This document shows positions 6,445-34,055 of a stretch of DNA of 36,143 nt, in pieces. The DNA comes from Chrysochromulina tobinii (taxonomy: Eukaryota; Haptophyta; Prymnesiales; Chrysochromulinaceae), in assembly GCA_001275005.1 (NCBI GenBank), contig JWZX01001982.1, forward strand, positions 1-36,143, in the 5' to 3' direction. A program made the translations under genes and the position numbers. The notes under the pieces were generated by a model that did not search any database, had not been told where the DNA came from, and was given only the letters and a program-made list of their open reading frames with translations. Numbering within the stretch: position 1 is the first letter of the stretch; the number at the start of each line of letters is the position of its first letter.

Positions 6445-9329
6445 ATGAGCGACTCGATGGGCAAGGCCGTGTTCGAGGCCGCAAGGTACGGCAACGAGGC
6501 GGAGCTCACGCGGCTGATCGGCCTTGGAGGGAACGTCAACTGGCGCAATCCTGATGTGGTGCGCCGCCGCATGTGCCTCGCGTGGGCGCCCGCGTCCTCG
6601 CCGCCTCTGCTGCTTTCGCCGCCCGAGACGGCGCCAGTTCCCCAGAGCTCGCTGTACAGCGCGCTGCGGCGCTGGCTGCGCCGCCACCCCGCCGCCCCGC
6701 CGAGCTTGGCACACGCGTCCTCGTCGCATGGCGCGCGCCGCACCCCCGCGTGCTCGCCCACGCTCCTCGCGTGCTCTGGCATTCGATGACTCCGCGTGTG
6801 CTTCATTTGCCCAGCACGGAGGCACAGCTCTGATGTATGCCTCAATCAACGGGCACGAAGGGTGCGTCTGCATCCTCCTCGCGTCCGAGGCGATCGAGGT
6901 CAACGCCACGGTAAGCCTCGAGCATGCCCTCCCCCAGCACATGCGATGGATCCGCTTCCATGGTGTCATGTCATTCTTGGCCTCTCTTTTATCTTCAGGA
7001 GGTCAACCGTTGGACAGCATTGCATTACGCGGCAATCGAAGGCCGCCTCGCGATCGCCAAGCGCCTCCTCGAAGGGGGCGCCGATCCGACGCTTGGAAAC
7101 AATGTCGGCATGACGGCCCTCGACTACGCACGGCGGGAGGGCAAGAGGGCGAAGAGCGAGGTCGTGGCCCTGCTGAGCGAGCCCAGGTACGCGATGAAGA
7201 CCGAACGACGGAAGCGAACTCGAACGCAGCGGCCGCGCCACAGACAGCGCCCCGACGCACGCTCAGGCGCGCGCTCAGGCGCACTCTGGCGCACTCAGGC
7301 AGCACTCACAGGCAGCACTCAGGCAGCAATCAGGCAGCACTCACGAGCAATCACGAGCAATCAGTAGCACTCGGTCGACCCACGCCGTCGCCCCACGCCG
7401 TCGCCCTCGGAGAGGGCGCTGCTGCCACCACTGCCACTGACTGCCTTGCCAGCTTCACGATCACCCTTCGCAAGCCCTCGCGCTTCCTGATTGCATGCGA
7501 TGGCGCGCCGTGCTGGGCGCCACTGCACAGCGCCAACTGCGTGCGTTCCCCGTGCGCTTCGAAACAGGGATTGGAAGGCGGAGGCGTGCTGGAAGGCGGC
7601 GGCCAACAAGGCGAAGGCGGCCTTCGCAAGGTATGGCTCGGGGCTCGGGGTTTTCTCGCATTTCCCTCCCTCCTAACCCCTGTGATGGCCTTCTGTTCCT
7701 TCCTAAGTTGACTCCCTCCCGTGACTCATCTCGGATGGGCTGCCCCCGCTCCCTCATCCCATCCATCTCGCGCATGCAAGTGATCACCACGGCGTCTGTC
7801 TCCCTCCTCCCCTCCCCCTCTCGCTCCCATCCCTGAGGGCCACTCTAAGTGCTGTGTATCCATCCCTCTCGCGCAGGCTCGGCTTCGGCCTCGCCATTCT
7901 CTATCTCTTACATATGGCTCGCATCGCCGTGGCCCCGCCTGAGGTATCCGCCACTGCGGCATTGTACCAGGAAAGAGGGGGAGGCACGGCCCCTCGGAGC
8001 CCTCCTTTTCCTCCGTTTCCTCCGCCGCCATCACATCCGCCACCACCACCGCCATCCCCATCGCCTCCGCCATCCCCATCGCCTCCTCCTCCAACAAGGC
8101 CAATCCCATTGCCTCCTCCACCGCCTTGGCCTCCCCCACCGCGGCCATCTCCACCTTCGCCTCCACATGCACCATCACTATTCGCGCTCTTCGTCTCCGA
8201 TGACGCTGGCCTTGTTTCGGAGCAGCTAGAGGATGCGCTGCTGGTCCTCATGGTGCTGCTTGCGGTGTGCTTTTGCTGCGTGTCCTTTGCGCTCAGCTCC
8301 TCTCATGAGGTCGAGGCAACGCCGCGCAACGACCTCCCCAAGCCGGCCGTCCTCCCCGAGCCGCGCAACGGCCTCCGCGGCTACGCGCCGCTCGAAGAGA
8401 AACATGTGATACAGGTGGAGGAGGACGGCTTCGCCCTACGGGCTCTTCTGCCGGATGCCGATGCACTCTTGCTACAATCGCTCGAGGCGCTGCTCCAGAC
8501 AGAGCACCCAGAGTGGCTCGGAAAGGGCCAGGACGTGAAGAAAAAGTACGGCGAGTACGACTCGCTCAAGCTCGCGTGTGCGTGGAAGGTCGACCATCCA
8601 AGCAACCTGAAAAAGTACACGACCGGCGTGGAGCGCGTGCAGGAAGAGCTCAAGCGGCTCCAGAAGAAGGGCAAGAATGTCTCTTATGTGCCCGGCCTGC
8701 CCGTGAAGACGGATCGTGCGCGCGGCTTCACCCTCTCGCAGGCTTGCAATGAGGTCATCCTCTTGCATGGTGTCAACCCAGATCGGCTTCTAGACCTGCT
8801 GTCCACGGGCCTGAACGAGCACTTCTCAGGCACCGGCGCGGGCACCGCCTTCGGCGACGGCGTCTACCTAGCGGAGGACGCTGGCAAGACGGATCAGTAC
8901 GTCGGCCCCGACAGCGCGTACGACCCAAGCAGTGAGCTGCACAAGTGGCTGTACAGCGAAACCGTGCCCCACCCGGAAGACGTCCTCTACGTTCTCGTGG
9001 TGCGCGCGGCCCTCGGCTTCCCCGTGCGCACGCAGCGTACGCTGGACAATTCGAAAAAGGCAAAGACACATGACCTTCGAGCCGGACGGGTCAAATCGAT
9101 GGACGATGGTGCGCGCATCTTCCCCGTCAACTGCCGTGAGCTCTCGGCGGTGCCGGGGGTCATGCCACCAATCTTTCACCATTCGCTGATTGCCGAGCTG
9201 GGCAAGGATCTCATGCGCTACCGCGAGTTTGTTCTCTTCAACAGCAACTACGTGCACATCGACTACGTCATCGCATACCACCGCTACAATGGCGGCCAGA
9301 AGCTGCGTATGACTGACAGTCCCGTATGA
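6445..9329 (+). CDS. Ankyrin-TM-PARP protein A
   Basis: Five exons fit: 6445-6558, 6815-6910, 6999-7186, 7568-7630 and 7877-9329, in phases 0,0,2,2, giving 637 residues. All introns are GT-AG and the model matches copy B. Exons 1-3 (residues 1-132) encode ankyrin repeats, for example TALHYAAIEGRLAIAKRLLE and GADP. Exon 4 encodes a short Ala/Lys/Trp helix. Exon 5 has a hydrophobic stretch (155-173), a proline-rich SPPP segment (about 195-254), a strong membrane helix (274-294, ALLVLMVLLAVCFCCVSFAL) and a PARP catalytic domain. The H-Y-E triad is H451 (LLHG), Y484 (GDGVYLAED) and E604 (YREFVLF), so ADP-ribosyl transfer from NAD+ is expected. There is no TIR domain, unlike copy B. Exon 1 could instead end at 6555. 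A separate gene starting at the in-frame ATG in exon 5 is less likely given the matching phases. Confidence 0.78.
7262..7372. repeat. Degenerate 10-base repeat array in intron 3 of gene A
   Basis: The array consists of variants of GGCAGCACTCA and GCAATCAGG with a period near 10. It resembles the arrays in all DNMT5 introns but lies in the intron of a gene on the other strand. Copy B lacks an obvious counterpart in its intron 3. Confidence 0.75.
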
Positions 9330-11368: not shown

Positions 11369-11591
11369 CTTGGAAGCGAGGAGTGAAATTGATGTGTGAA
11401 ATCATGTTCTTCTCTGAAAACATTGGGCATATGCTCGCAGAGCGGGAGATTCTCGTTTCGGAAGACCCCGAATTTCGCAAGTTTTCAGGGCGACGCTTGT
11501 GTGCGCGCGGGCCAAAACAAGCTTCAGCTCGCCTCCGTCCGCGCACGCACGGTCGTGCTGGGGTGTAGGCGCGCCGCTGCCCGGAGGCAGT

Positions 11592-14500: not shown

Positions 14501-14978
14501 GGATGCAGGAGAGGAGTCGGTGCAGGAGAGGAATAAGGGCCGAGACAAAGAAGGCAGGACGAAAGACGGCGGCTCGAAAGACGGCGGCTCGAAAGACGGC
14601 GGCTCTGGCACTGGCCTCCAGCAGACCCAACCAAACGTTGCGTCGTCCGCCGCGCTGACAGCACTTCTGGAGTCACAACAGCGCCTCGCCGCCGAGTTGG
14701 CTTCCCTGCAGCTCGCGGCGGCCGCGGCGCAGCGTGCCGCGCGCGTGGCGGCGAAGGAGCGCAAGGAGCGCTCACGCAGTGGTCACGCCATTACGCCGAG
14801 TCAGCGGCGGGAGCGTTTGGCGACAACGGTTGCCGCCAGAAGCACCCGCCGAGGCAGTGTCGAGTCAGCTAATACGGGCGACGATCTCCATTCTCAGGTG
14901 GGCGACGAGTCTTTTACGTTGCCGTCGTCCCCCGAGAAGATCTCTCCAGGTGCTCAGACCTTTCTGTCTGGTATCTAA
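11592..14978 (+). CDS. IQ / coiled-coil / armadillo-repeat protein
   Basis: This is an intronless 1128-residue protein from the first in-frame ATG; the frame is open to a GTG at 11499. Residues 1-150 are an unrecognised folded region rich in Trp and Pro. A KGEKGEKGEKGEKGP tract follows near 178-192. An IQ-type motif (ATRIQAVQRRRV, near 290-303) suggests calmodulin binding. Residues about 315-475 form a long charged coiled coil. Residues about 478-810 contain several armadillo repeats, seen in phrases such as IRVAGGIQPLVSMLSD, IREAGGIRWLILLL and IHEAGGTRSLIGFL, with a TGRKTGRKTGR insert between repeats. The tail is low complexity (KDGGS and EDAGEDAGE repeats). Armadillo arrays bind protein partners; this may be a cytoskeletal or ciliary scaffold, but the sequence does not decide. 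Confidence 0.82.
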   Translation: MPPATSPAGKRAQQPAAHLPGGKTQPRQKSVQGSIPAARPEENVSLPPIREYDTAIEFNDADFGWEPRWVAPVNGSIIDGVPRSWMKPYTLPYQLPCSIPPLDMVTIRKTSMFVLSPGALASMFRLPESGTPVIGPSWTFEVFPDPDNPDPVNKPEDGEEKEEEKVHEKAENGAKDKGGEKGEKGEKGEKGPAEAPAEALTVANASADGSASEPADKAAEATTTSPELTQADLKLLDEKAEKAKHATSAKLAKQAAMKGDLRAKRQSAQLAKDAKAAAVVALREEKRKIQAATRIQAVQRRRVAKQEVRSIRRELWARGVLKKGIILWRERGRRRLEKLAKEQELERQQRERRAQEAEARRLAKEEAARQKEEREKEEAAAPGGARRKAKLKNMIDRTLEEQKRQKQREKTALAAKDAARRAQEEVIEAMKRQVELREAALRKQEEDAKRQQDEKIAREAQEAQDELVAFEEATAAIHGFVKGLQSMAFMGDEQREQIRVAGGIQPLVSMLSDTNNDQAAAVALSHVCQDNQQNCAVVLETGGFAPLFALADESRKTLAGHGEMGGKEGRKTGRKTGRKTGRTTSRSSGGAGEVKVDPEQERRDHKRIIIAATNIARWPNRKCQDAVREGAGISLLVSLLPGGPDNDVTAAAIQALRQVTFENVANSDAIREAGGIRWLILLLTARHAHPVAIDAAATLAQICVGNPTNQDAIHEAGGTRSLIGFLSADVKSQGLIWAARGLANLSRDNSTNRTYISEQQGVIARLVDLLSVGPTSEGAHCAADVLRCLMTGHDDRVAVAVLAALRRQGVGLGPDATFALSEAFPELLQGLAHAVEMRLAASMKRGTDRALVQMALNDAFSLGMPEEMLSQAQQWLDSMEAARAEAIAARKLLARVKKDANKKGGKKAGDKDRAAGPESPSKAEMDGSHGSRGDEQSTRQPPHDEQQGAPGENPKDSDAMEGGAGEDAGEDAGEESVQERNKGRDKEGRTKDGGSKDGGSKDGGSGTGLQQTQPNVASSAALTALLESQQRLAAELASLQLAAAAAQRAARVAAKERKERSRSGHAITPSQRRERLATTVAARSTRRGSVESANTGDDLHSQVGDESFTLPSSPEKISPGAQTFLSGI

Positions 14979-16537: not shown

Positions 16538-18824
16538 TCACTCGATGGGTCTCACCTTGTCGCCGCTGGCTGCGCTGGCAAGTAGCACCTCTGCGTCGGC
16601 CGCACGCCGGTCACGAAAGATGTCCTCATCGATCGAATTGGCGACGAGGAAGCGGTAGAGCTGCACCGTGCGGCTCTGGCCGTATCGGCGAACGCGCCCG
16701 ACTGCCTGCGTGTCGCAGGACGTGTACTCTTGCTGCGAGCCCACGAGCAACGGATGAACGAAGATGGCGTGCGAGGCGGCCGTCAAGTTGGCACCCGCTG
16801 CCGACTCGTCGCGCAGGTTGAGCAGCAGCACGCGCGGCTCTCCCGCCTTGAGCTCCAGCTGCTGGAAGTTGTCAATGATGCTCGAGCGCTGTAGCGGCGT
16901 ACCCACAAGCATCACGGCGGCCACCTTTTGCTCCTTGAGTGCGTCGGCCACCTGATGAGGGGGAGCGCAATCAGAGGCACTCAGAGGCACTCAGATGCAC
17001 TCAGATGCAATCAGATGCAGTCAGAGGCAGTCAGAGGCACACTCAGAGGCGCTCAGAAGCACTTGGAGGTACTCAAGGGCACTCGAGAGCACTCGTGAGC
17101 ACTCAAGGGCGAGTCGGCCACCTTGAGGAGAAGGTCTGGGAATTGAACGAAGATGAGCACTCGTTCCTCGGACGGCAGGCTCTTGACCAGCCGGACGATA
17201 GACGCAAGCTTCACTCCATACGAGGTCGAGCCTGCCTGCGCCGAGGCACCCTTTGCAGAGCTCACCTCGTTGCCGAGCTCCGCGACGGAGATGACACACG
17301 AGGGATGCGCGGGCGCCTTGCACCCGGGCTTGATGCACATCTGCTCGGCCGCCGCACGGAACATGGCGTCATACTCGCCCACGTGGCCGCAGCACGAGAG
17401 CACGCCCGTGCGCCTTGCCCTTGCCCCCAAACTTGGCCACGGCGTCGGTGGGATCCATCTGGAGCTTGCGCACATTCTCAAAGAAGCGGAGAGAGCGCAC
17501 TCGTCCGGTGACCTCTTTGGTGAGTCGTCGGAGCAGGTGCACCTGGTCGCGCGTCCACGCCATCTTGTCCTTGAGATTCTTCTCCTTCTCGGAGATCTTC
17601 ACCTGGGGAGAGGAAGGGGGGGGAAGCAATCAGATGCCATCCGAAGCCATCTTAGGCGCACACTCGGAGGCCATCCGAGACCATCAGCCACTCCAGATCG
17701 AGTCTTCGTCTTCATCGCACCTTCTTGTCGACCGCGGGTGCGAGGCCCTGCTTGACGAGAGGCCCGAGGAGCTCATTCGCCTCCTCGTCACCGCAGTCGA
17801 GGATCTCGGTGCTCTGCCAGAGCTTGAACGAGAGACCGGGCGAGCACCGAAGAGCGTATTCCTTGTGCTTGTCGCTCATGCCCTTGGTCGGGAACTCGCT
17901 CTCGAATTTCGCGATGCAATTGCGCGCGAAGGTCACCTGCTTGACGAGCTCGGCGGTGCATGCATCGAGCTGGTCCTTGCGCATCGCGATGATCGCGTCG
18001 CACGCGGCGGTGGCCGTCTTGGCCTTGCCCTCCATGTCGAAGTGCGCGCACCGCTTGAGCAGAGCCTCCTCGGGGCACGACGAGCCCGAGAGCACCTGCG
18101 CGAGGCGCGACTCGCGGTCATTCTCGGACTTGCACTTGGCCTTGATCGTCTTGTGGTTGTTCTTCATGTCGAGCGCCTCGAGGTGGTTCTGGAGCTCGAC
18201 GTAGAGCGCGCGCTCCGCCGCAGGCAGCGCGATGCGCACCGCCTGCTCGCGCCATGGGATCTCGTCAATCTCGGCGATATTCTGGCGCACGAAGAGGTCG
18301 AGGAACTGTTGGGCGGTCGCATGCCGCTCCGCGTACCACGCGGGCGTGTGCACGTCGCGAAAGTATTGGAAGCGCTCGACGGATGTGAGCGATTTGTTTT
18401 CAGACTTGGTCAGGTCGGTCGCGTCCGCCGATCCGAGGCGAAGCCCGAGCCACTGCGCCGTCTCATTGACCGCCGCGAAGCCCGAGATGTCAGGCGTGCC
18501 CGAGAGGACCCAGCGTGCACTCGCCTGGAGCCCGTTCACGATGGCGATCACATCGCGCTCCTTGTTGTACGTGTACTCATCCACCACGAGCCGATTCCAA
18601 TAGAAGAGCTCGAGGGGCGCCGCCTTGAGCGACGTGTAGTCCTTGTCAGCTTTGCCTTGGAAGAGGCCCCAGGGATCGGCCTCCTCTGCCTCCTCGATAG
18701 TCTTGGTGAGCTTGGGGGCAGCTGCCTTCTTCTTGGGCGGCGCCTTCTTGCGCTTCTTGCCGGCGCCGCCGTCCTCGTCCTCCTCGTCCTCGTCGTCCTC
18801 GTTGTCCTCGTCGTCCTCGTCTTC

Positions 18825-18872
<48 letters not shown>

Positions 18873-21800
18873 CTCCTCCTCCTCCTCCTCCTCCTCCTCG
18901 TCTTCCTCCTCAACCTCGAGCTCCTCGTCCTCCTCAACCTTGGCCTTCTTGGCGCCCGCACCGCCCGCCTTGGCCGCCTTCTTCTCGGCTGCATACGTGG
19001 CCTTCTTGCCCTTGAGCCCGACCGCCAGCCCGACGCCCTCGAGCTGCAAGCCCGAGGCCAGCCGCTTCTGCATGTTGCCGAGCTTCGCGGCGCCCCCCCC
19101 GCGCCCGCACTCGCGTGCCGCCTTGCGCCGCGCCTGCCCGCCTTTGACGGCCTGGCGTGCCTCAGCGACCCCCTGTGCGCCGGCCGCCAGACGCGCGGCC
19201 TGCTCCTGCAGCCGCTCAGTCGCGCTGGCGTACGCGGCTCCAAAGTGGCGCATGTTGGTCTTCGAATGTGGCAGCGCATCGGCCCCGGCGAGGTTGGCGA
19301 GGCGCGCAAAGTACAGGTCGTTCCGCAGGAGCGTGATCGAAGCCACGACCACGTCGACCGCCTGAAGGTCGCGGATGGACAGCTTGTTGATGTCCGCCAT
19401 CGTGGCGATCGTGACGCACTTGAGCGCGCCGCCCGAGAACTTATGCACCTCCTTAGGCCACTGCTTGAGCAGGTGGGACGGCGCGAGCACAAGCGTCGCC
19501 TTGAGCGGAATGAAACCGTCTGCGCGCAGCGGTGGCGGCGGCGTGCGCGGCACTCGCGGCGTGGCGTCGATGAGCGCGATGGTGATCACCGTCTTGCCGT
19601 AGCCGACCTCATCGGCCAGCACGCCGCCACGCACGACGCGCGGCATGCTCGCACGGGCCTCGAGGCGCCAGCGCAGCGCGGGAAGCGTCGACTCGGCCAC
19701 CTCCGTCTCCATGAAGGGCGGCACGTCCTCGGCCTCGCGCGCGAGCATCCAGGAAAGCGAGCGCTGCTGCTCGATCCGGAGCTGCAGCACGGGCAGACTC
19801 TTCGGGCGCCCCGCAAAGGGCCCAAAGTGCTCCGGCTGCGCGGCGGGCGGGTCGCGCTTGTTGGACGAGAGCCGAAGCAGCGGTAGGGCGATTGGCTGGT
19901 CCGAGTGCTCCACCAGACGCCACTCAAGCGTTGTGCGCGTGGCGAGGCGCGAGGGGGGAATGAGCGCCAGCGCGCGCAGCGCGAGCGCCATTGGGTTGGC
20001 GCTGATCCGGATCGAGCCGATGGCCTTGTCGTGGGCGTCCGCCACGTCGAGCATCGCGCTCTCGCCGCCCGCGACGGCGCCAATCGAGTCGGCACGCCGC
20101 TCGACGACGAACGCGGGCGGACGCCTCTTGAGCCGCTGCTCGTACGCCCCAGCTTGCACCGGATCCTCGACGGCGACGATCTTGGAGCGCGACATGGGGA
20201 CCCACTGAAGCTGCGGCATCATGGGCGCGCAGGCCTCGCATGGCGAGCGGCCGTTGGCCCACGCCGACAGCGCCGACGGGTGCGAGAGCTTCGCCCATTC
20301 ACGGCACGCGGGCGGGAGTGTGAGGCGCTCCGTGATCCACGCAATCGAGCCAAAGGTCATCTTGGATTTCGTCAGCGGGATCAGGCCCCACTGGCCGAAG
20401 GTCCATTCGGAAACCTCGGCGCGGAGCAGCGGCACAGAGCAGCGCAGGAGCGGCACCGCCGCCGGCCCCTCCGCCGGCCCCTCCGCCGCTGGCCCCTCCG
20501 CTGGCGCCGTGTTGGGCACATCGAGCACGAGCGGCTGGGTGGGCGCGGCGATCGTCGCGTCCGCAAAGCGGATGGGCGTGAGCGTGAGGGCGGGCGCTGC
20601 CTTCCACAGCCCGCGCACCTGATGAGGGAGGCCATCAAGCTGATGAGGGAGGCAATCAAGCTGATGAGGGAGGCACTCACGCGCACCGTGGTGGGCTGAT
20701 GAGGGAGGCAATCAGCAATCAAGCGCGCACCGTGGTGTCCACCGCCTCCTCGGAGGGTCGGGGCTTCCCATGCTGGCGATCCAGCACGACCACATTCTTC
20801 TTGGACGAGCCGAGAGTCTTGCCGCCAGTGGCCGAATTCGCATCGCGGAGCTGGTCCTGTGGACCGGGCGTCGGTGTGGCCCACGGACGCCAATCCGAGG
20901 GTAGCTCGGCGTACACCTCGCGCGTCTCGCGATAGGGCAGCCGTTCAAACGAGGGCGCGAAGACGAAGTGGTCCTCATCCTCCTTGCCCGTGCGCGACGG
21001 GTCGAGGAAGAAGTAGCACTCCTTACCGTCTCCGCCCTTGACGCGCTTATGCAGAGAGCCCATCGCTCCTCCACACTGCTCGAGGAGCTCATACTCGCCC
21101 GACACGTCACCGTCGAGGGCCGCCCGTGCGCCCGCGCCGAGCGAGAAGGACCACGTGCGATAGCGTGAGTGGCCGTCCCAGGGACCGGTCAGACCGATCG
21201 TCGCCTGGTACGAGTCAATCGGAGTGCCGAGGGCGCCGACGACGATGGGCACAGTACGGATCGTAGGCAAACATAGTTCCCACTGACCCGCGAGCAGTTG
21301 CGCCGCGACGCCGCCGGTGCGCGCCGCGCGGCGGATGGCCGCGTCCGTCGGGTTGATGCTCATCCGTGCGACGGGCAGGCCGAGTAAGGTGCGAAGGTGG
21401 CCGCGCTGCGCGGGTTGGGTCGCGTAGAGCTTCCACTCAGCCTCCGTCGGTGTGAGCACCAGCTGCAGGGTGCCGTGCGCGCTCTTGTACCTGAGCAGGT
21501 GAGCCCTCGGCGGTCATCAGAGGCAAGCAGAGGCCATCAACGCCCATCAGCGGCCATCAGCGGCCATCAGCGGCCACCAGAGGCCATCAGCGGTCATCAG
21601 AGGTTATCAGAGGTCATCAGAGGTCATCAGAGGCCATTAGCGTACGTGGCCGTCCAGCGCTCGGCGCGCGTGACGCTCTCAAAGTAGAAGCGCGTGCTAC
21701 CAAGCTTGCGCAGGCTCTCTGCCCACGCGTTCCACAGCTGCTCCTCCTCGCTCAGGGGCGTGGCTGGCTTGCCGCCGCTCGCTTTGGAACGCTTCGAAGC

Positions 21801-22978: not shown

Positions 22979-25978
22979 CACACCTCCTTAATGACGGTCG
23001 CAATCAGAGGTCTTCAGAGGCCATCAGAGGCCATCAGAGGCGAATGAGATCGACGCACCTGGAGCGAGAGCACCTCCTGCCCGATCAGCGGCCCTCCGCG
23101 GTTCGTCACGTACGGCACCATGTTCGGCGTCAGGCACGGGCACACGCCCGGCTTGCCCGAGCCAGTCTCGCGGTCGACATTCTGCGACAGGTTCCAGATC
23201 TGCGTCTTGTACGCGCAGTCGATCCCCTTGGACACGTCACGCAGGTAATTAATGTCCATCAGGTCGAGCACCCGCTCCACCTGTGATGAGGGGGGCCATT
23301 CGCGCTCATCAGAGGCCATCAGAGGCCTTCAGAGGCCATCAGAGATCATCAGGGAGGCATGATCTCGAGTGGCGGCGCAGCGCACCTGCGCCGAGCCCCA
23401 GTCATGCCAGGCAAAGTCGGGCAGAGTCGCGTGCCCTTGGGAGACCCATCGCGTGAGCGGCCGCTTGTTGCCGAGGCACTCCTGCGTGCGCGCGCGCTCG
23501 TGGCGCGTGATACACCTTCCCCAATCGACGACCTTACGCTGGTCATTCTTGGGCTTCGAGAGCTCCATGCGGGCGCGATGCACGCGTGGGTCGTCGCTCG
23601 GCAACAGGAAAGCCTCGAGAGAGGACGAGGACGGGCGCGCCATCTCGTCAATCGACGCCTTCCACCGAGGGAGCTCGTTACAGCGCGCCCTGGTGGGCTT
23701 GGGGGCGAGGGGCGCCGCTGAGTTGCCCTCCTCGCCGCCGCCGGTGCCCGCCTCCTCGTCCGCCTCCTCGTCCGCCTCGTGGACCTTGGGTTTCGTTATC
23801 GCCTCCTTGGGCTTGGCGGCTGGTCCGCGCGCGAGGGCCGCCTTGAACCGATTGGGCGCCTTCATGTCGATTGCGAGCAGGTAGACGCGCGTGCGTGTGT
23901 GCGGCACGTAGTGGTTCTTCGTGTCGACGCGCAGAAAGGTTGCCGCGTAGCCCTCCAAGGCGTAATACTCCGTCATCTTCTCCCACGGGGCGCTGCACAC
24001 ATTCTCCTGGATGACGATGGGCGGTCGGTGGCGGCGCACCCATCCGAGCATCCCCCAGAACGTTTGGCCCGACTCGCCCTTCTGCTCGATGCCCTTCTGC
24101 TTCGTGTTCAAGTTGGAGTAGTCGACGCACGAGGTCCCCGCGATCAGCACGTCCACCTCGCCCGGCACCGGACGCTTGGCGCCGTACGCGGTGGTCGCGG
24201 CGTCGTTGCCGAGCTCGCGGATATCGCGGAAGAGCAGCGGCGGCGCAAAGTTGCGCTCGATGTACGCCTGAGAAGCAATCAGTGACGAGCAGTGACAATC
24301 AGTGGCTAGCAACGGCAATCAGTGGCAATCAGTGGCAAACGCTCGATGCACGCCTGAGGAGAAAGGCTCTCACGAACCATCAGCGGCGCTCTCAGCGGCA
24401 CTCAGGGGCTCTCAGTGGCAATCAACGGCACTCAGAGGCACCCAGAGGCTCTTGGGAGGTCATCGGGAGGTCCTCGGGTGGTCCTATCAGCAGCGTGCCG
24501 TCCTTTACCTGCTTGAACGGCTCGATCTCACAGGAGAAGACATGCTCCACGTTGATCGGCGTCCCGTGCTGCTCGTGCACCGCCTTGCAGATCAGGTCGA
24601 GCGCAAGCAGCGGCGACTCGGTCCCCGAGCACATCGTCGCCACTCGGATCGGCCGTCCCTGCAAGTCCATCGCGAGCCGCTTGAGAGAGAGACCCTCGAG
24701 GGCGCCGCCCTTGAGCTGCGCCTTGAGCTCCGCGTTCCTCACCATGTCGCGGAACATCTCGACGGGCTCGGTGATCACCGGCAGCTCATCCGACTGCTCC
24801 TCGGACATAGTGCGCGACGAGAGTTTGCGCGACGTGTCGCTCGCCGTCCACGTGGCCTGCTCCGCGCCCGGTGTCTGGCCCTTGAGGAGCGGTGCGGCTG
24901 AGCTCGCGGCTGATCTCGCGGCCTGCCGCTTGGCCGATTGGTCCGCGGCCGCCTTCGACTTGGACGCTGCGGCGGCGTCAAACGCTCCACTCGAGTCCTG
25001 CGAGCCCTTACCGGCGCGCTCCTGATCGCGTTCGCCCGCCGCATCGCCCTTGTCCTCGTCGCCGCCGTCCTCGTCGCCGTCGTCGTCGTCGTCGTCCTCG
25101 GGCGCCGCTGCCTTGGTCTTCTTCGGCGCCGCCTTGGCAACGCCCGCGCCCTTACGCGACGCCGCTGCCGCCTTCTTGGGCGCGGCCGGCGTCTTCGCCG
25201 GCGGTGCGGCAGGCGTCTTGGCCGGCGGCTTGGCCGGCGGCTTGGCCGGCGGCTTGGCCGGCGGCTTGCGCGAGCGTTTCTTTACGGGCTCTTTGAAATC
25301 GTCGTCCGAGTCGTCGACGGCCGCGGAGCCGTCCTCATCGTCCTCCGAGTCCTCATCGTCCGAACCGGACTCTTCAAAGCTCGCCGAGCTATCGTCCGAG
25401 TCCGACTCGACCTTCTTCTTGCCGCCGGCGCGCTTGGGGCGCGACGCGGCCGCCGCCTTCGAGGCTCCCGCCGCTGCCTTCTTGGGCAGCACGTCGTCCT
25501 CGTCCTCGTCCTCGTCGTCCTCTCCCGAGAGTTCCATATCGTCGAGTGCCTTCTCTTGCTTGGCGTAGTCGACGACCGGCCGTGCGCGGCGCGCGCGGCC
25601 ACCCGGGCTCTCCTGCGAGGATGTGCTCTCCGACGCGGCTTCGGCACTTGCGGCTTGAACCTTTTTGACTTCCTCGCTCGCGGCGTCCGCAACTTGCTTG
25701 ACGTTGTCGCTGAGGAGCTGGATGTACTCCGGCTCGACATCCTCCTCCTCCTCGCCATCGTCGTCGTAAAGGATGTTGAACGTGCCGTCCTGATTAACCG
25801 AGGTCACCGTGCCCTCGTACCATTTGGTCGCCTTCTCTGGCAGGACGGAGGCCATGTAGCGGGCCTTGACCCGGGCACCGGGCTTCAGCGTGCCACTCAC
25901 TGGGGCAGGCGTCTTGAAGGCGCCGCAGCCCACGTCACCAGAGGCCTTGGCACTGAGCGTGGGGGTGACCGACGACAT
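16538..25978 (-). CDS. DNMT5: DNMT5-type cytosine methyltransferase / SNF2 ATPase
   Basis: Eight exons fit GT-AG rules: 25978-24509, 24267-23386, 23280-23059, 22946-21646, 21490-20731, 20618-17721, 17602-17122 and 16951-16538, about 2808 residues. Residues 29-88 are Tudor-like (KWYEGTVTSVNQDGTFNI). A Lys/Pro/Ala H1-like tail follows. The C5-methyltransferase has motif I (VATMCSGTESP, near 446), motif IV with cysteine near 537 (AGTSCVDYS in place of PCQ), ENV near 578 and LAGNAM near 878. The SNF2 part has DEVGYGKT (K1887), DEYT (D2225) split by an acidic insert, a RING-like Cys/His cluster, and QAVGRVRRYGQ. This domain order is that of DNMT5, an ATP-dependent maintenance CG methyltransferase in fungi and algae. 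Exon 7 needs one extra base removed near 17413 to stay in frame. It is divergent from the S51-like/TPR/LRR gene. Confidence 0.92.
16952..17121. repeat. DNMT5 intron 7 with 10-base repeat array
   Basis: This 170-base intron is mostly degenerate tandem copies of a unit like GGCACTCAGA. Nine bases, GTGGCCGAC in the sense strand, occur both at the donor (17112-17120 region) and at the start of exon 8 (16943-16951). Confidence 0.85.
17409..17420 (-). other. Apparent one-base frame disruption in DNMT5 exon 7
   Basis: The frame upstream (VRKLQMDPTDAVAKFGG) and downstream (TGVLSCCGHVGEYD) differ by one base. The exon length of 481 equals 160 codons plus one. Removing one G/C base near 17413-17414 would join them as KGK-R-TGVLSCCGH. 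No plausible splice pair explains it. Confidence 0.75.
17603..17720. repeat. DNMT5 intron 6 with degenerate 10-base repeats
   Basis: A short, worn array of CCATCCGAGA-like units fills the centre of this 118-base intron. Donor AAG|GTGCGA and acceptor CCCCAG|GTGAAG. Confidence 0.75.
18774..18945 (-). repeat. Acidic coding repeat in DNMT5
   Basis: A trinucleotide and hexanucleotide repeat (GAG, GACGAG in sense) codes for about 55 nearly uninterrupted Glu/Asp residues. It is followed by a basic Lys-rich patch (KKRKKAPPKKK). It sits inside the SNF2 ATPase between the Walker A region and the DEYT box. Confidence 0.92.
20619..20730. repeat. DNMT5 intron 5 with 21-base repeats
   Basis: Units of about 21 bases, each containing CTGATGAGGGAGGC, repeat four times on the + strand. 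In sense each supplies a CCTCATCAG acceptor-like end. A 13-base copy of the exon 5 donor region (GCGCACCGTGGTG, + strand) lies at 20681-20693 as well as at 20725-20737. Confidence 0.85.
21491..21645. repeat. DNMT5 intron 4 with 10-base repeat array
   Basis: About a dozen tandem units like CCATCAGCGG or TCATCAGAGG fill this 155-base intron. This is the clearest array of the family. The splice is phase 2, GCCAC|GTACGC to CTCAG|GTACAA. Confidence 0.9.
22947..23058. repeat. DNMT5 intron 3 with (GA)14 and 10-base repeats
   Basis: A perfect 28-base AG dinucleotide run (22951-22978) lies directly before the exon 4 acceptor. In sense it is a (CT)n tract ending in GCAG, so the microsatellite serves as the polypyrimidine tract. 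A short run of CCATCAGAGG units lies next to it. Confidence 0.9.
23281..23385. repeat. DNMT5 intron 2 with 10-base repeats
   Basis: Five or six units like CCATCAGAGG occur in this 105-base intron. Donor GCGCAG|GTGCGC and acceptor ATCACAG|GTGGAG. Confidence 0.85.
24268..24508. repeat. DNMT5 intron 1 with repeats and exon-edge copy
   Basis: Degenerate AATCAGTGGC and CTCAGAGGCA units fill this 241-base intron. Bases 24341-24360 match 18 of 20 bases of 24255-24274, which span the acceptor and start of exon 2, so the intron carries a second acceptor copy. Use of that copy would lead to an early stop. Confidence 0.85.
25190..25268 (-). repeat. Lys-Pro-Ala coding repeat in DNMT5
   Basis: A 12-base unit codes for repeated KPPA, then KTPA and PAAP blocks, giving a histone-H1-like basic tail within DNMT5 exon 1, between the Tudor-like domain and the methyltransferase. 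Confidence 0.88.
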
Positions 25979-26176
25979 GTGCGTCGAGCGCCCGCAAACG
26001 ACGGTACTCGTGGTGATACGCGCCAAAAACGAATGTCGAGAACACGAAAACGTCGTCGCGGGCGTTCGATGACGCGCCGAAGTATACAGCAAGCCGCCCT
26101 GGCGTTCGCAACCGTGTTCAGAAAGTTTGGGGGCTTTCTGCCGATAGTTTCGTCACGAGACGCGACCTTCAGCAAT
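25979..26176. promoter_or_regulatory. Divergent promoter region, DNMT5 / S51-TPR-LRR gene
   Basis: These 198 bases separate the two start codons. An E2F-type octamer, TTTGGCGC on the minus strand, lies at 26020-26027, about 45 bases upstream of the DNMT5 ATG. No TATA box is clear. The regulatory role is inferred. Confidence 0.5.
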
Positions 26177-28929
26177 ATGCCGGCCGATCCAGGCAACACC
26201 TACCGTTCGATCGAGGCCTACCTCAAGGACCTTGAGGTGCGCCAGCAGCTCGAGAAGGCGCCGTGCGCCGCCGTCTTCATGCTCGGCTCGGAGGAGGTGC
26301 TCTCCATCCGGTACGGCAACCACCCGTGGATCGTGCGCGTGCGGTGTGAGCTGCCGACGCGGCCGCTAGGCCCGGGCGGCATGGAGGAGCCCGTGCGCGC
26401 GACATACATCGGCGCCAACTCTAACGAGGACACGCAGCGCTTCGCGGCCTTCGTCGAGGCGATGCGCACGATCGACGTCTTCTCGTGCGTGCACCTGAAG
26501 CTGGCCAAGCCGTCCGCGCGTGCGCTCGCGCACCTCGAGGAGTCGGACATTGTGTGCCTCGGCGACGGGCCGCACGTGCTGCAAACATGGAGGATGCTCT
26601 CCTTGAACGAGGAGTGCGTCCTCGAGCGCGTCAAGTGGCGCTACTACACAGGCGCCGTGCTGATCGGGCTGGGCACGGGCTGTCAGTTCCTTGGGCAGCG
26701 TTGGTGGGTGGGCGAGCCACGGCATGAGCTCGAGTCGCGCGAGGCGGCCAAGGCTGGTCAGCCCGACCCGCACGCTCACCAGCCGATCGAGGCGCGCTAC
26801 TGGGGCGAGAAGGCGACGGAGATTGTGCCGTGCCTTGTGGCGATCGACGATGCACAGGCGGAAGCGCTCGCGGAACTCCAAGGCGCGGGTGCGCTCTGCA
26901 TCGTGCTGCCGCCCAAGGGGTCCCTCATCTTCAACGTGGACGGCTGCCTCGAGCCGTGTGGCGCGCTGCTCTGCGAGTACCGGTATGATTGGAAGGCAAA
27001 GGAGGTGCGGATGGCAATCCTCTCGCCTCCGGATGAGACGACGAATGTGCTCGCATGCCTTTCGTTCCTCGAGCGGCGGACGGCACGGCGGCAGGCTCGT
27101 CGGCGCAAGGCGATCGGGCTGGTGGAGGACGCGCCGCTGCCCGAGGATGCAGCCGGTGATCCCCAGGAGGAGGGCGAGGAGGAGGAGGGCGAGGAGGAGG
27201 AGGGCGAGGAGGAGGAGGCGGAGGGCGAGGAGGCGAAAGAGGAGGCGCGCCGTGCCGAGCGCAAGGCGCGCGAGGAGAAGCATCAGTGGCGCGCACAGCT
27301 CGACAAGCGCAAGCGCGCCGAGGCCGAAGCTGAGCGTCTCACAGGTGTAACGGCTTTCAAGGCGGCGGATTGGGAAGGAGCTCTAGACGCCTTCACGAGG
27401 GCCTCTGAGCTCGCGCCCGACGACCACCGCGCTCACCTGAACCGGTCCGCTTGCTTACTGAAGCTGGGGCGCGAGCGCGAGGCCGTTCTCGCCGCCGACG
27501 TTGCGCTCCACCGATGCAAAGGCGCCGACGCGAAGGCTTGGTACCGTCGAGCGTCTGCATGGCTCGCTTCGGGCGAGTTCAACGAGTGCCTTGCGGACTT
27601 GGAGATAGCTCGGCGCATGGAGCCCGCGGATAAGGCTATAGGGACGCTCAAGGCCAAGGCTGAGGAGGAGCGCGAGACGGCCACGTTTAGCTTCTCAGTC
27701 GACCTCAAGCTCGCCCAGAATGAGGACGCCCAGGCTGCAGGCGAGCCAGTGCCGCACCCAAACCAGCTCCGGATGGGTCTGAAGCCTCGAGGCGATTTAC
27801 GCGCCGTGCGCACCATGAATGCAATCGAGGCTTTTGACGGGGCGAGCTTGACGTTGCGCGACGACACGCTCATCTTGGCGCACGCGCCGAGCCGAGCGCT
27901 CTCCGACGGAGCGACTCGGGTCCTCGCCCCGGCCTTCCTCGACCATCGCGCCCTCTTCTCTCTCGAAGCGTGCGCCAAGCGATCGTCGCTCGAGACGCTC
28001 GAGCTGCATGGCGTCGTGTTGGGCGCCTGGGGCGCGGCGTTCCTCGCGCGCGGTGCACGCCTCCAGGGAGGTGCGGGGCTCGAGCGCCTCTCTCTGGTCG
28101 AGTGTCGGCTGCGCGATGAGGGCGCCAGGTCGATTGGCTCCCTGCTCTCGAGGGGCAGTCGGCTCGTGGAGCTCGAGCTGAGCGCGAATCGAATCGGGGA
28201 TGAGGGGCTGCTCGCTCTCGCCACGGAGCTCGGTATGAATGAGTTCTTGCAGGTGCTGTGAACGGCTCGTCCCTGTGAATGCTTCTCGTCCCTGTGAACT
28301 GCATGCGTGAGCCTCACGCCTGCCTTTCCCAAACCTTCTTGCAGGTGCTGCTGCTTGCACGCAACCGGATCGGCGATAAGCGCATGGGTGCCTTGGCGAG
28401 GGCTGTGGGGCGCCACAGGGCGCTCCGATGCGTCGACCTCTCGTGCAATGCGATCCGGTTCCCAGGCGCGTGCCATCTCGCAGAAGCCGTGCGTGAGTCG
28501 GCCACGCTGCAGAAGCTGAGCCTGGCGGGCAACAAGCTGCGCGCCGATGGGGTCTTCCGTCTTGCACACGTGGCCATCGGGCACGCGAGTATGGCCGTGC
28601 TGGATCTGCGCGGTGTCGAGCTGCGCAAGGCAGACCGCCGGAAGCTCGACGGGCGCACGCGCTACACGCGGCTCACCTTTCTCATCGATCAGGGCGCGGA
28701 GGCGGATCGGGGAGCCTGGCAGGGGCGTGGCGGCGCGACGGCCCCTGGTGGAGGCGGCATGGTGATGGAAGACGAGTGCGCGCCGCCGCTGCCGCCGCCG
28801 CTGCCGCCGCCGCCGCCGGCGGCAGTGCCGGCCAGCGACGGCGCGATAGGGTCGGATGAGACGCCATCCAAGCTGAGCGTTGCAGCCTGGCTGGCCAGAG
28901 TAGGCAAGGCGGACGTAGCGTTGTATTGA
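26177..28929 (+). CDS. S51-like pseudopeptidase / TPR / LRR fusion
   Basis: Two exons, 26177-28252 and 28345-28929, are joined in phase 0 and give 886 residues. Residues about 75-290 resemble the peptidase S51 / type 1 glutamine-amidotransferase-like fold: RATYIGANSNEDTQRF, then LEESDIVCLGDG, then YYTGAVLIGLGTGCQFLG. Family members have G-x-S-A-G at the last site; here the nucleophile position is Gly166, so the domain is probably inactive. An acidic stretch follows (about 334-360), then a charged helix, then TPR-type repeats (about 389-491, AFKAADWEGALDAFTRASEL). Leucine-rich repeats start near 598 and continue across the intron (LVELELSANRIGDEGLLAL, then LRCVDLSCNAI). The tail has a polyproline run. 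TPR and LRR bind proteins, so an adaptor role is inferred. The S51 assignment is by eye. Confidence 0.78.
28244..28350. repeat. 15-base direct repeats at both ends of an intron
   Basis: TTCTTGCAGGTGCTG occurs at 28244-28258, across the donor, and at 28336-28350, across the acceptor. The 92-base intron (28253-28344) is exactly one repeat period. Inside it CTCGTCCCTGTGAA is itself duplicated. Confidence 0.95.
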
Positions 28930-29994: not shown

Positions 29995-32900
29995 ATGAGC
30001 GACTCGATGGGCGAGGCCGTGTACAAGGCCGCAAGGGACGGCAAGGAGGCGGAGCTCAGGCGGCTGATCGGCCTTGGAGGGAGCGTCAACTGGCGCAATC
30101 CTGAGGTGCGCCGCCGCATGCCTCGCGTGGGTGCCCGCGTCGTCGCCGCCCCTGGTGCTTCGGTCGCCTCGCCGCCGACACGGCGCTCGCCCGACACGGC
30201 GCCATGTCCCCACAGCTTGCTGCACGGCGCGCGGCGGCGCTGGCTGTGCCGCCGACCCGCCGAGCTCGGCACACGCGTCCTCGTCGCATGGCGCGCGCCG
30301 CACCCCCGCGTGCTCGCCCACGCTCCTCGCGTTATGGCACTTGAGGACTCCGGTGAGGACTCCGGTATGCTTGTTGTGCCCAGCACGGATCCACAGCTCT
30401 GATATCGGCCGCAAACCACGGGCACGAAGGGTGCGCCCGACTTCTCCTCGAGTCCGAGGCGATCGAGGTCAACGCCACGGACGTAAGCCTCGAGCGTGCC
30501 CGCTCCCCAGCGATGGGTCCGCTTCCAACCTTCCATGTGTCGTGATTTCGTTCGTCTCCTCCCTTCTGTCTTCAGAACGGCGGAAGCTCAGCTCTGCATG
30601 GCGCGGCATACCACGGTCACCTCGCGATCGCCAAGCGTCTCCTCGAACGAGGCGCAGATCCGACGCTCCGAACCAATCCGAGGCTCGGAACCAAGCGCGA
30701 CTGGGGCAGCAAGACGGCCCTCGACAACGCAAAGAGGCAGAAAAAGTGGGAGGTCGTGGCCCTGTTGAGCGAGCCTAGGTACGCGGATGAAGACCGACCG
30801 ATGAAAGCGAATCGAACGCAGCGGCCGCGCCGTCTTGGGCACACGCCGTCGGCGGATTGCTGGCCGACGGCGAACAAACGGCGGCGACTCGCCATTGGAT
30901 GCGGCCGAGAGGACGCGACGGCCGACATGCGTCGCGTCAGAGTGCCTTGCAATTGCGCTTCCTTCCCAGGCGATGATTGATGCCGAGTGGGCGCGTGCCC
31001 AGCGCGCCGTGATGGGCACATCGGGAGTCGGCGGCACTGGCGGCCTGGGTGGCCACTCTCGTTGCGGCTGAGTTTGGCCGCACCGGCCGCGCCAAACGCT
31101 GCTGCCACTGCCTCTGGCTGCCTTGCCATCTTCACGACCACCCTTCGCAAGCCCTCGCGCTTCGTGATTGCATGCGACGACGCGCCATGCTGGGCAAAAT
31201 TGCTCAGCGCCAACAGCGTGCGTTCGCCCGTGCGCTTCGAAACAGGTGGGACACGGCGGCGGCCGCGAGAGAGGCGGAGGAAAGGGCGGCGGCGGCGGAA
31301 AGGGCGGCGGCGGAAAGGGCGGCGGCCGAGAAGGCAGCGGCGGACAAGGCGGCGGCCGACAAGGCGATGGCGGCCTTCCCTTGGTACGGCTCGGGGCTCG
31401 GGGTTTTCTCGCATTTCCCTCTCTCCTAACCCCTGTGATGGCCTTCTGTTCCTTCCTATGTTGACTCTCTCCCGTTTGCAATCCCGTGACTCATCTCGGA
31501 TGGGCTGCCCCCGCTCCCTCATCCCATCCCTCTCCCATCCCTCTCGCGCATGCAAGTGATCACCACGGCGTCTGTCTCCCTCCTCCCCTCCCCCTATCAC
31601 TCCCATCCCTGTGATGGCCACTCTAATTGCTGTGTATCCATCCCTCTCGCGCAGGCTCGGCTTCGGCCTCGCCATTCTCTATCTCTTACATATGGCTCGC
31701 ATCGCCGTGGCCTCGCCCGAGGTATCCGCCACTGCGGCATTGTACCAGAAAAGAGGGGGAGGCACGGCCCCTCGGAGCCGTCCTTTTCCTCCGTGGCCTC
31801 CGCCGCTATCGCCTCTCCCTTCGCGGCCTCCGCCATCGCCTCTCCCTTCGCGGCCTCCGCCGCCATCACATCCGCCATCACATCCGCCACCTCCACCGCC
31901 ATCCCCATCGCCTCCGCCATCCCCATTGCCTCCTCCGCCACCACCACCGCCATCCCCATCGCCTCCGCCATCCCCATTGCCTCCTCCTCCAACACGGCCA
32001 TTCCCATCGCCTCCTTCACCGCCTTCGCCTCCCCCACCGCAGCCATCTCCACCTTCGCCTCCACACGCGCCATCACTATTCGCGCTCTTCGTCTCGGATG
32101 ACGCTGGCCTTGTTTCGGAGCAGCTTGAGGATGGGCTGACTGTCACCGAGCAAGGCAAAGTTGCTGTCGGTGCGGCGGTCAGCGCGGCTACCGTTGCGGC
32201 CACGGCGGCCGTCCGCGCGGCCACCGTAGCGGCCACGGCGGCCACGCCGTACGTCTCCGCCGCGGCCGAGTCCATCAAGCTCGGTGACAACAAATCGTTG
32301 CTTGACGCGTATACGGGCATTCCGGCCGAATACCGGCCCGCTGTGGCCGTTGCGGTGCTCTTCTTCTTCTTCTTCTGTTTGCTACTGATGCTTCTGATCT
32401 GGCTGCCTGCGTGCGTGATGTGGCTTTACGGCTACGTGCGGATCGATCCCGATCCGCCGATCCCGATCCGCCGATCTAAGAACCGCTTCGCCGGCTTCGC
32501 CGTGCCACGCGTGATCACAATCGATATGTTGGAGGAATACAAGCGCCGAGTGAAATCGCTGGTTCCAAAAGGCATCAAGTACGAAGACTACTTCCCCCCA
32601 ATCGTTCTGTCGTATGCTTCGGGCCGCCGCCCCGACGATTGCGAAGGCTCCGGGCCCGGCGTGGTGTACGTCATGGGGCTGGCCGAGTTCCTCCATGATC
32701 GCGGCCTGCGGTGCTTCTCCGGGCTGCAAGTGCCCCCAGGCGTGGACTGGCAGACCTTTATGCTGCGCCTGACTGGCGAGAACGGGAAGCGTGAGAAGCC
32801 CAAGGTGCTCATCGTCCTCCTCACTGCGGCCTTGTACCAGTCCGAGCCCTGCCTGAAAGAGATTGACACGGCTATAAGGCAAGAGATACCCATCCTCCCA

Positions 32901-34055
32901 GTGCGTTTCGAGGATGATTTGCCCGGCAACACCGAGCAGTGGACAAATCTCAAGGGTGCGGAGTGGGAGATGCGGAAATTTCGAGTGCAGGAGAAGCTCA
33001 ACTCGCTCAACAACATCCCCAACCCCGGCACAGTGCTCGACAGACCCAGTGCTCTGGATGACATCATGGCGGAGCTCGATGCACGTGGTCTACCGGCATT
33101 GGCTGAGCCAGTGCCGGATGGCCAAGTGCAGGAGAACGGCTTCGCCCTCCGGGCTCTTCTGCCGGAGACCGATGCACCCATGCTACAATCGCTCGAGGCG
33201 CTGCTCAAGACAGAGCCTTCAGAAGAGCTCGGCACGGGCAGGGACGTGTCAAAAAAGTACGGCCCGTACGACTCGCTCAAGCTCGCGTGTGCGTGGAAGG
33301 TCGACCATCCAAGCAACCTGGACAAGTACACGACCGGCGTGAGGCGCGTGCAGGAAGAGCTCAAGCGGCTCCAGAATAGGGGCAAGAATGTCTCCAATGT
33401 GCCCGTGAAGACGGATCGTGTGCGCGGCTTCACCCTCTCGGAGGCTTGCAATGAGGTCATCCTCCTGCATGGCACCAACCCAGATCGGCTGCTAGACCTG
33501 CTGTCCACGGGCCTGAACGAGCACTTCTCAGGCACCGGCGCGGGCACCGCCTTCGGCGACGGCGTCTACCTCGCGGAGGATGCTGGCAAGACGGATCAAT
33601 ACGTCGGCCCCGACAGCGCGTACGACCCGAGCAGTGAGCTGCACAAGTGGCTGTACAGCGAAACCGTGCGCCACCCGGAGGACGTCTTCTACGTTCTCGT
33701 GGTGCGCGCGGCCCTCGGCTTCCCCGTGCGCACGCAGCGTACGCTGGACAATTCGAAAAAGGCAAAGACACATGACCTTCGAGCCGGACGGGTCAAATCG
33801 ATGGACGATGGTGCGCCCATCTTCCCCATCAACTGCCGTGAGCTCTCGGCAGTGCCGGGCGTCATGCCAACAATCCGTCACCATTCGCTGATTGCCGAGC
33901 TGGGCCAGGATCTCGTGCGCTACCGCGAGTTTGTTCTCTTCAACGACAACTACGTGCACATCGACTACGTCATCGCATACCACCGCTACAATGGCGACCA
34001 GAAGCTGCGTATGACCGACTCAATGACCGACTCAATGACCGACAGTCCCGTATGA
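29995..34055 (+). CDS. Ankyrin-TM-TIR-PARP protein B
   Basis: Five exons fit: 29995-30105, 30384-30482, 30576-30778, 31246-31383 and 31655-34055, in phases 0,0,2,2, giving 983 residues. Residues 1-137 hold ankyrin repeats (SALHGAAYHGHLAIAKRLLE). Residues 139-183 are an Ala-rich charged helix. A hydrophobic stretch (185-203), a proline-rich SPPP segment (about 223-325), a strong membrane helix (413-441, VLFFFFFCLLLMLLIWLP) and a TIR domain (about 495-640) follow. The TIR shows IVLSYASG, FLHDRGLRCFSGLQVPPGV, KVLIVLLTAALYQSEPCLKE and IPILPV; E586 in SEPCLKE sits where NAD+-cleaving TIRs have their glutamate. The PARP domain (about 680-975) keeps H789, Y822 and E942. The last residues repeat MTDS three times. 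NADase and ADP-ribosyltransferase activity in one membrane protein is inferred from motifs. A role in stress or immune signalling is possible but unproven. Confidence 0.82.

Follow-up and report, generated by a model that had tools for sequence, protein, structure and literature searches.

Enzymes of the TIR and PARP types are two major arms of stress and immune signalling that use nicotinamide adenine dinucleotide (NAD+), and to our knowledge the two domains normally reside in separate proteins. Many TIR domains act in assembly only, and these usually lack the catalytic glutamate. SARM1 combines an ARM region, tandem SAM domains and a C-terminal TIR NAD+ hydrolase. Both in SARM1 and in plant TIRs, clustering makes the TIRs associate with each other and cleave NAD+ (PMC7282519, in excerpt); in tankyrase SAM filaments line up the PARP domains (PMC9712121, in excerpt). 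Here, a stretch of 36,143 nucleotides from Chrysochromulina tobinii (contig JWZX01001982.1 of assembly GCA_001275005.1, positions 1 to 36,143 of the forward strand; hereafter the window) is analysed, in which one gene, called gene B, encodes ankyrin repeats, a TIR and a PARP and so ties both arms together, and in which a tandem copy, gene A, is devoid of the TIR. How a TIR and a PARP share one substrate is a wider question for NAD+ signalling, and it is directly testable since gene B is accompanied by a natural TIR-less twin.

The join of TIR and PARP in one reading frame is real. The frame 31560-34055 (+) runs for 831 codons without a stop and contains, in its own numbering, TIR_2 at amino acids (aa) 372-474 (34.1 bits, cut-off 28) and PARP at aa 629-807 (42.8 bits, cut-off 26.7), both above the curated Pfam cut-offs. 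A five-exon model, predicted from the sequence with a GT donor and an AG acceptor at all four introns, gives a protein of 983 aa in which Pfam recognizes ankyrin repeats (aa 11-104, with Ank_2 at 11-102), TIR_2 (aa 524-626) and PARP (aa 781-959); other domains in the spliced proteins were sought at E ≤ 0.001. The first-pass annotation of this DNA had proposed an ankyrin protein whose fifth exon encodes a membrane helix, a TIR and a PARP, and this domain order, the motifs and the exon are all borne out: E586, H789, Y822 and E942 fall at exactly these numbers in the five-exon model, and profile comparison matched both the TIR and the PARP families above the cut-offs. The coordinates are collected in Table 1.

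The same join recurs elsewhere. Both Pfam families are found in P0004, from a metagenome (89% identity over 96% of the query), in P0005, the EukProt entry Chrpa1 of a Chrysochromulina that we take to be C. parva (84% over 96%), and in P0006 (80% over 95%). These were the three rows with both families among the best 120 of 173 matches and again among 120 of 208, and two such rows were present among 53 in the longer-protein search. P0007 and P0011 also align through the TIR-PARP junction, the former beginning within the TIR before E586 and the latter stopping in the leading PARP region before the triad, which brings the fusion proteins of other data sets to five; P0008 and P0009 are apparent further pieces of the P0007 and P0011 types. 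Because the active-site residues are conserved in the database rows and the join recurs in these five proteins, it is not due to chance, and an assembly chimaera is ruled out by P0004, P0005 and P0006, which combine identical modules in other data sets. It is also highly improbable that an internal start or a splice separates the TIR from the PARP into two messages in the cell: gene A does provide a case of a TIR-less form encoded by its own gene, but no stop lies between the two domains of gene B, and the same three relatives are predicted as single proteins.

The catalytic residues of both modules were followed through 139 database rows, each aligned locally. In the PARP, Y822 and E942 are kept in 93/93 and 92/92 of the rows reaching each position, and H789 is a histidine in 94 of 96, the exceptions being one gap and one doubtful local alignment. 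This triad aligns with the H, Y and E of tankyrase-1, which is nearest by fold and profile, and the sole match of the whole frame among PDB chain sequences is PARP15 (E 0.0058). The PARP is thus predicted from its sequence to have the residues expected for ADP-ribosyl transfer; the H-Y-E triad does not decide between mono- and poly-ADP-ribosylation. In the TIR, E586 is a glutamate in all 50 rows that reach it, and the same column holds a glutamate in 8/8 other TIRs aligned from the C. tobinii genome. The TIR fold presumed in the first-pass annotation is predicted by structure modelling and fold search: the solved folds nearest to the gene B model in Foldseek are enzymes, and plant TIR immune receptors share the fold. 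The ratio of non-synonymous to synonymous substitution rates (dN/dS) between this TIR and eight relatives from the same genome is 0.34-0.51. The TIR is predicted to carry the residue expected for NAD+ cleavage, and the main fork in reading the protein would be whether its TIR cleaves NAD+ or only assembles. That it is only an assembly module, with the PARP as sole enzyme and TIR packing taking over from SAM packing in a tankyrase-like design, is somewhat unlikely. The PARP does score better than the TIR and is nearest to tankyrase, and many TIRs only assemble; yet assembly-only TIRs usually lack the glutamate kept here throughout, and the closest folds of known structure belong to enzymes. In keeping with this alternative, tankyrase has ankyrin, SAM and PARP parts (PMC9712121, in excerpt). 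These follow each other in that order.

Compared with the described systems, the gene B protein has neither the ARM nor the SAM of SARM1 (Pfam, E ≤ 0.001, as for the other absences named here), and it differs further by its predicted membrane helices and by the PARP that follows the TIR. Like tankyrase, it has ankyrin repeats and an H-Y-E PARP with no PARP regulatory domain; unlike tankyrase, it has about three ankyrin repeats instead of five clusters, no SAM, and a TIR and predicted helices between ankyrin and PARP. With plant TNLs (RPP1, RUN1) it shares the TIR fold and a motif of the S-x-x-C-L-x-E type, but ankyrin repeats, predicted helices and a PARP take the place of NB-ARC and LRR (leucine-rich repeat) domains. 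SPARTA TIR-APAZ differs in having a prokaryotic argonaute partner and no PARP, and a PADLOC search for prokaryotic anti-phage TIR or ART systems returned no match for the TIR part or the PARP part (E ≤ 0.01). With no SAM detected, and no ARM as in SARM1, the protein belongs to neither the SARM1 nor the tankyrase family; by analogy, it would mix the logic of SARM1 (repeat, oligomer, TIR) with that of tankyrase (ankyrin, oligomer, PARP). Its modules and their logic are known; their order is new. In the open-licence literature, covered mostly as titles and beginnings of abstracts, literal phrases for a TIR-PARP protein had no match and no such protein was named among the papers listed, nor do the covered parts of PMC8195603, PMC9503650, PMC7075850, PMC9334734 and PMC4236053 describe a TIR and a PARP in one protein; the view of the first-pass annotation that no protein with this order had been described is not contradicted there.

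Gene A lies about 20 kb from gene B and shares with it about 420 bases of upstream DNA, the exon borders and an intact PARP. Where the two genes align, introns are 83-97% identical and exons 1-4 82-93%, and since introns and exons are both so highly identical the copies are young or homogenised. DNA blocks of 77-94% identity in self-BLAST flank the replaced segment on both sides.

Table 1. Features of genes B and A in the window, with positions, strand and the basis of each assignment
Feature	Position	Strand	Basis
Gene B exon 1, predicted start and first ankyrin repeat	29995..30105	+	Donor GTGCGC; Ank_2 aa 11-102
Gene B exon 2, ankyrin repeat	30384..30482	+	CAG/GTAAGC borders, in frame
Gene B exon 3, ankyrin repeat	30576..30778	+	CAG/GTACGC borders; Ank aa 73-104
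Gene B exon 4, alanine-rich, likely coiled coil	31246..31383	+	CAG/GTACGG borders, in frame; coiled coil by eye
Gene B exon 5: helix 1, proline-rich stretch, helix 2, TIR, PARP, stop	31655..34055	+	Acceptor GCGCAG; open to TGA
Predicted membrane helix 1 (aa 185-203), weak	31656..31712	+	Kyte-Doolittle 1.81
Long proline-rich stretch after helix 1	31770..32070 (approximate borders)	+	Translation
Gene B segment without gene A counterpart: alanine-rich part, helix 2, TIR	32139..33122	+	Gap between self-BLAST blocks
Predicted membrane helix 2 (aa 414-432), strong	32343..32399	+	Kyte-Doolittle 3.26
TIR domain (aa 524-626)	32673..32981	+	Pfam TIR_2, 34.6 bits on spliced protein; fold matches
E586 codon, predicted TIR catalytic glutamate	32859..32861	+	Row conservation; column shared with other TIRs
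PARP catalytic domain (aa 781-959)	33444..33980	+	Pfam PARP, 42.4 bits on spliced protein; tankyrase match
H789 codon, H-Y-E triad	33468..33470	+	Tankyrase-1 alignment; row conservation
Y822 codon, H-Y-E triad	33567..33569	+	Tankyrase-1 alignment; row conservation
E942 codon, H-Y-E triad	33927..33929	+	Tankyrase-1 alignment; row conservation
Gene A, tandem copy, ankyrin-helix-proline-rich-helix-PARP, no TIR, 636 aa	6445..9329	+	Self-BLAST, exon model, Pfam, hydropathy
Gene A exons	6445-6555, 6815-6910, 6999-7186, 7568-7630, 7877-9329	+	Borders match gene B
Gene A segment in place of gene B helix 2 and TIR: most of helix 2 and linker	8241..8411	+	

Fusion and TIR-less forms both occur in other data sets, as P0004 has a close match of the gene A helix 2 and linker, followed by the TIR and, after it, the PARP, and the gene A-like P0010 has that helix joined directly to the PARP with no TIR. 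In a tree of the PARP (45 of 103 extracted rows), gene B groups with P0004 (97/89) and gene A with P0010 (100/97); fusions alternate with non-fusions and stand on three branches (gene B with P0004, P0005 with P0006, and P0007). P0005 and P0006, neighbours in this tree, are separated in a tree of the TIR (40 of 45 rows). Because of this alternation and of the different placement of P0005 and P0006 by their TIRs, the TIR is best seen as a putative exchangeable cassette in the family of gene B, for which these are signs; gene B may have gained the TIR or gene A may have lost it. It is quite improbable that the join is a mere by-product of such shuffling in large gene families, with two domains of no common function. 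The families are indeed large (26 TIR and 58 PARP matches in the genome) with many partners, and the trees disagree on the fusions, but all four active-site residues are intact on each of the three fusion branches.

The genome searched comprises 53 Mb in 2,253 contigs, and match counts are lower bounds; the published assembly has 59 Mb, 3,472 contigs and 63.4% GC (PMC4580454, in excerpt), and a word search of the main text of that paper did not find 'ankyrin', 'TIR', 'PARP' or 'ADP-ribos'. P0086, an NCBI protein of Chrysochromulina tobinii, aligns at 100% over 360 aa with another contig of the genome searched, and further stretches align with that locus at 82-100%. At least 26 matches to TIR_2, 20 to the gene B TIR, 58 to PARP and nine to Macro were obtained. 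At least 29 contigs carry TIR matches and at least 50 carry PARP matches, the contig of genes A and B being the only one listed for both, and among 58 loci, spanning about 1,500 bases on each side and covering 30 of the 58 PARP matches, both domains share a frame only at the two copies of the gene B locus (L032, L039); as the contigs are short and the loci have this span, distant or intron-split cases may be missed. A fusion common in this genome was thus rejected as far as tested. In 10 TIR and 10 PARP frames, some of them cut at locus ends, the partners include protein kinases, WW, decapeptide repeats, a laminin-G-like domain and, scoring below its cut-off, a PDZ-like stretch; a Pfam scan of 10 database proteins extends the list by ankyrin, Arm, LRR, FHA and AIG1. 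Other Chrysochromulina proteins (TIR-kinase, LamG-TIR-kinase, kinase-PARP, Arm-PARP, Ank-TIR) resemble gene B in having related TIRs, up to 73% identical in the same genome, or related PARPs, but unlike gene B those in these 20 frames and 10 proteins have one or the other, never both. An extensive repertoire of TIR and PARP proteins in mixed combinations is thus present in Chrysochromulina, a lineage apart from animals and plants. A viral or prokaryotic origin of the fusion was also considered: scans with short peptide patterns of the gene B protein alone gave four pattern matches in viral contigs and 23 in genome contigs, none confirmed as a relative.

In exon 5, where the first-pass annotation had seen a single membrane helix, hydropathy gives a strong helix (aa 414-432), a weaker one (aa 185-203) and a marginal alanine-rich hydrophobic stretch (aa 352-370, Kyte-Doolittle 1.62), so that the protein probably has more than one. 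Beyond that annotation, the present analysis adds a second helix, the TIR-less tandem copy and the signs that the TIR is exchangeable. The ankyrin repeats would lie inside the cell, followed by two helices with the proline-rich loop on the far side and by the TIR and PARP inside again, both ends being on the same side because of the two presumed crossings.

Tentatively favoured is a membrane-anchored signalling protein, TIR then PARP, that would be switched on by clustering. Since both modules are predicted to consume NAD+, it would likely form a two-part alarm switch. Copies of the protein would be gathered when the ankyrin repeats or the proline-rich stretch bind a partner; the TIRs would then pack together, as in SARM1 or plant TIR receptors, and start to cleave NAD+; and this packing would align the PARPs, as tankyrase SAM filaments do, for ADP-ribosylation of each other and of nearby proteins. 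The response from the common substrate could be graded, mild clustering giving ADP-ribose marks and the TIR product, and strong clustering draining local NAD+ so that the cell may die. Gene A, with the same front and a PARP but no TIR, would be a form that marks without cleaving. By analogy, the gene B protein may be active, its modules may compete for NAD+, and it may serve in cell suicide or immunity. A self-timing switch, in which, upon clustering, the PARP would mark neighbours first and the TIR would then drain the same local NAD+ and so stop the PARP or kill the cell, gene A being untimed, is unlikely; if true, it would be the first described case of a TIR NAD+ hydrolase and a PARP working in cis. 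A plain suicide device, in which TIR and PARP together exhaust NAD+ upon infection and ADP-ribosylation is a side effect, is distinctly unlikely. Both modules are predicted NAD+ consumers, the TIR NAD+ hydrolase SARM1 causes cell death even in plant leaves (PMC7282519, in excerpt) and the known haptophyte viruses are giant viruses (PMC11953307, in excerpt), but a single consumer would be enough, nothing in the window links the gene to infection, and PADLOC gave 0 families for either part.

Several observations weigh against the clustering-driven anchored protein. Among the top-listed TIR matches, Foldseek template-modelling (TM) scores are modest (0.33-0.48 by query); two of five structure models of the TIR are poor; and in the two-domain TIR-PARP model the TIR part is poor, with a predicted TM score (pTM) of 0.61 and a domain packing that is not reliable. 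A search of PDB chain sequences with TIR profiles recovered no TIR, the one row being an antibody chain at E 0.14. Only 4 of 10 TIR frames scanned in the C. tobinii genome pass the Pfam TIR_2 cut-off, which places this TIR family at the edge of TIR_2. Between genes A and B, dN/dS, which is based on few changes, amounts to 0.73 for the PARP part and 0.80 for the leading part of exon 5, and with the PARP at 0.73 and introns as alike as exons the pair bears no sign of strong selection. If aa 352-370 also crosses the membrane, or helix 1 does not, the ankyrin repeats and the TIR-PARP part would lie on opposite sides. Lastly, P0005 and P0006 as predicted begin with no obvious helix (by eye), so that membrane anchoring is not constant or these models are cut.

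Other observations concern the TIR and PARP families at large. L017, L019, L021 and L027 each hold a protein kinase followed by a gene B-type PARP in one frame, and some C. tobinii frames repeat one domain, TIR or PARP; on contig 661, L054 and L057 show two TIR stretches of the gene B family in one frame of 1182 codons. At L053:244-3606 (-), a laminin-G-like domain, a TIR and a protein kinase share a single open frame, which resembles a TIR receptor kinase; its TIR is below the Pfam cut-off yet matches the gene B TIR family. In P0033, P0039 and P0129, a gene B-type TIR is linked to a unit that bears the motifs SHRWE and RFWT (and SMPQ or CMPQ); in P0033, TIR_2 is the sole Pfam family at E ≤ 0.001, and the TIR-like look of the unit is an impression only. 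Within the window, a frame with armadillo repeats in which no PARP was seen lies at 11418-14978 (+), Arm-PARP proteins existing among the relatives. Between genes A and B are also found C5 cytosine methylase-like and SNF2-like frames, at 23332-24318 (-) and 17715-20711 (-), respectively, and upstream of gene B a frame with TPR and a leucine-rich repeat at 24914-28929 (+), with a further LRR-looking frame, by eye, from 28279.
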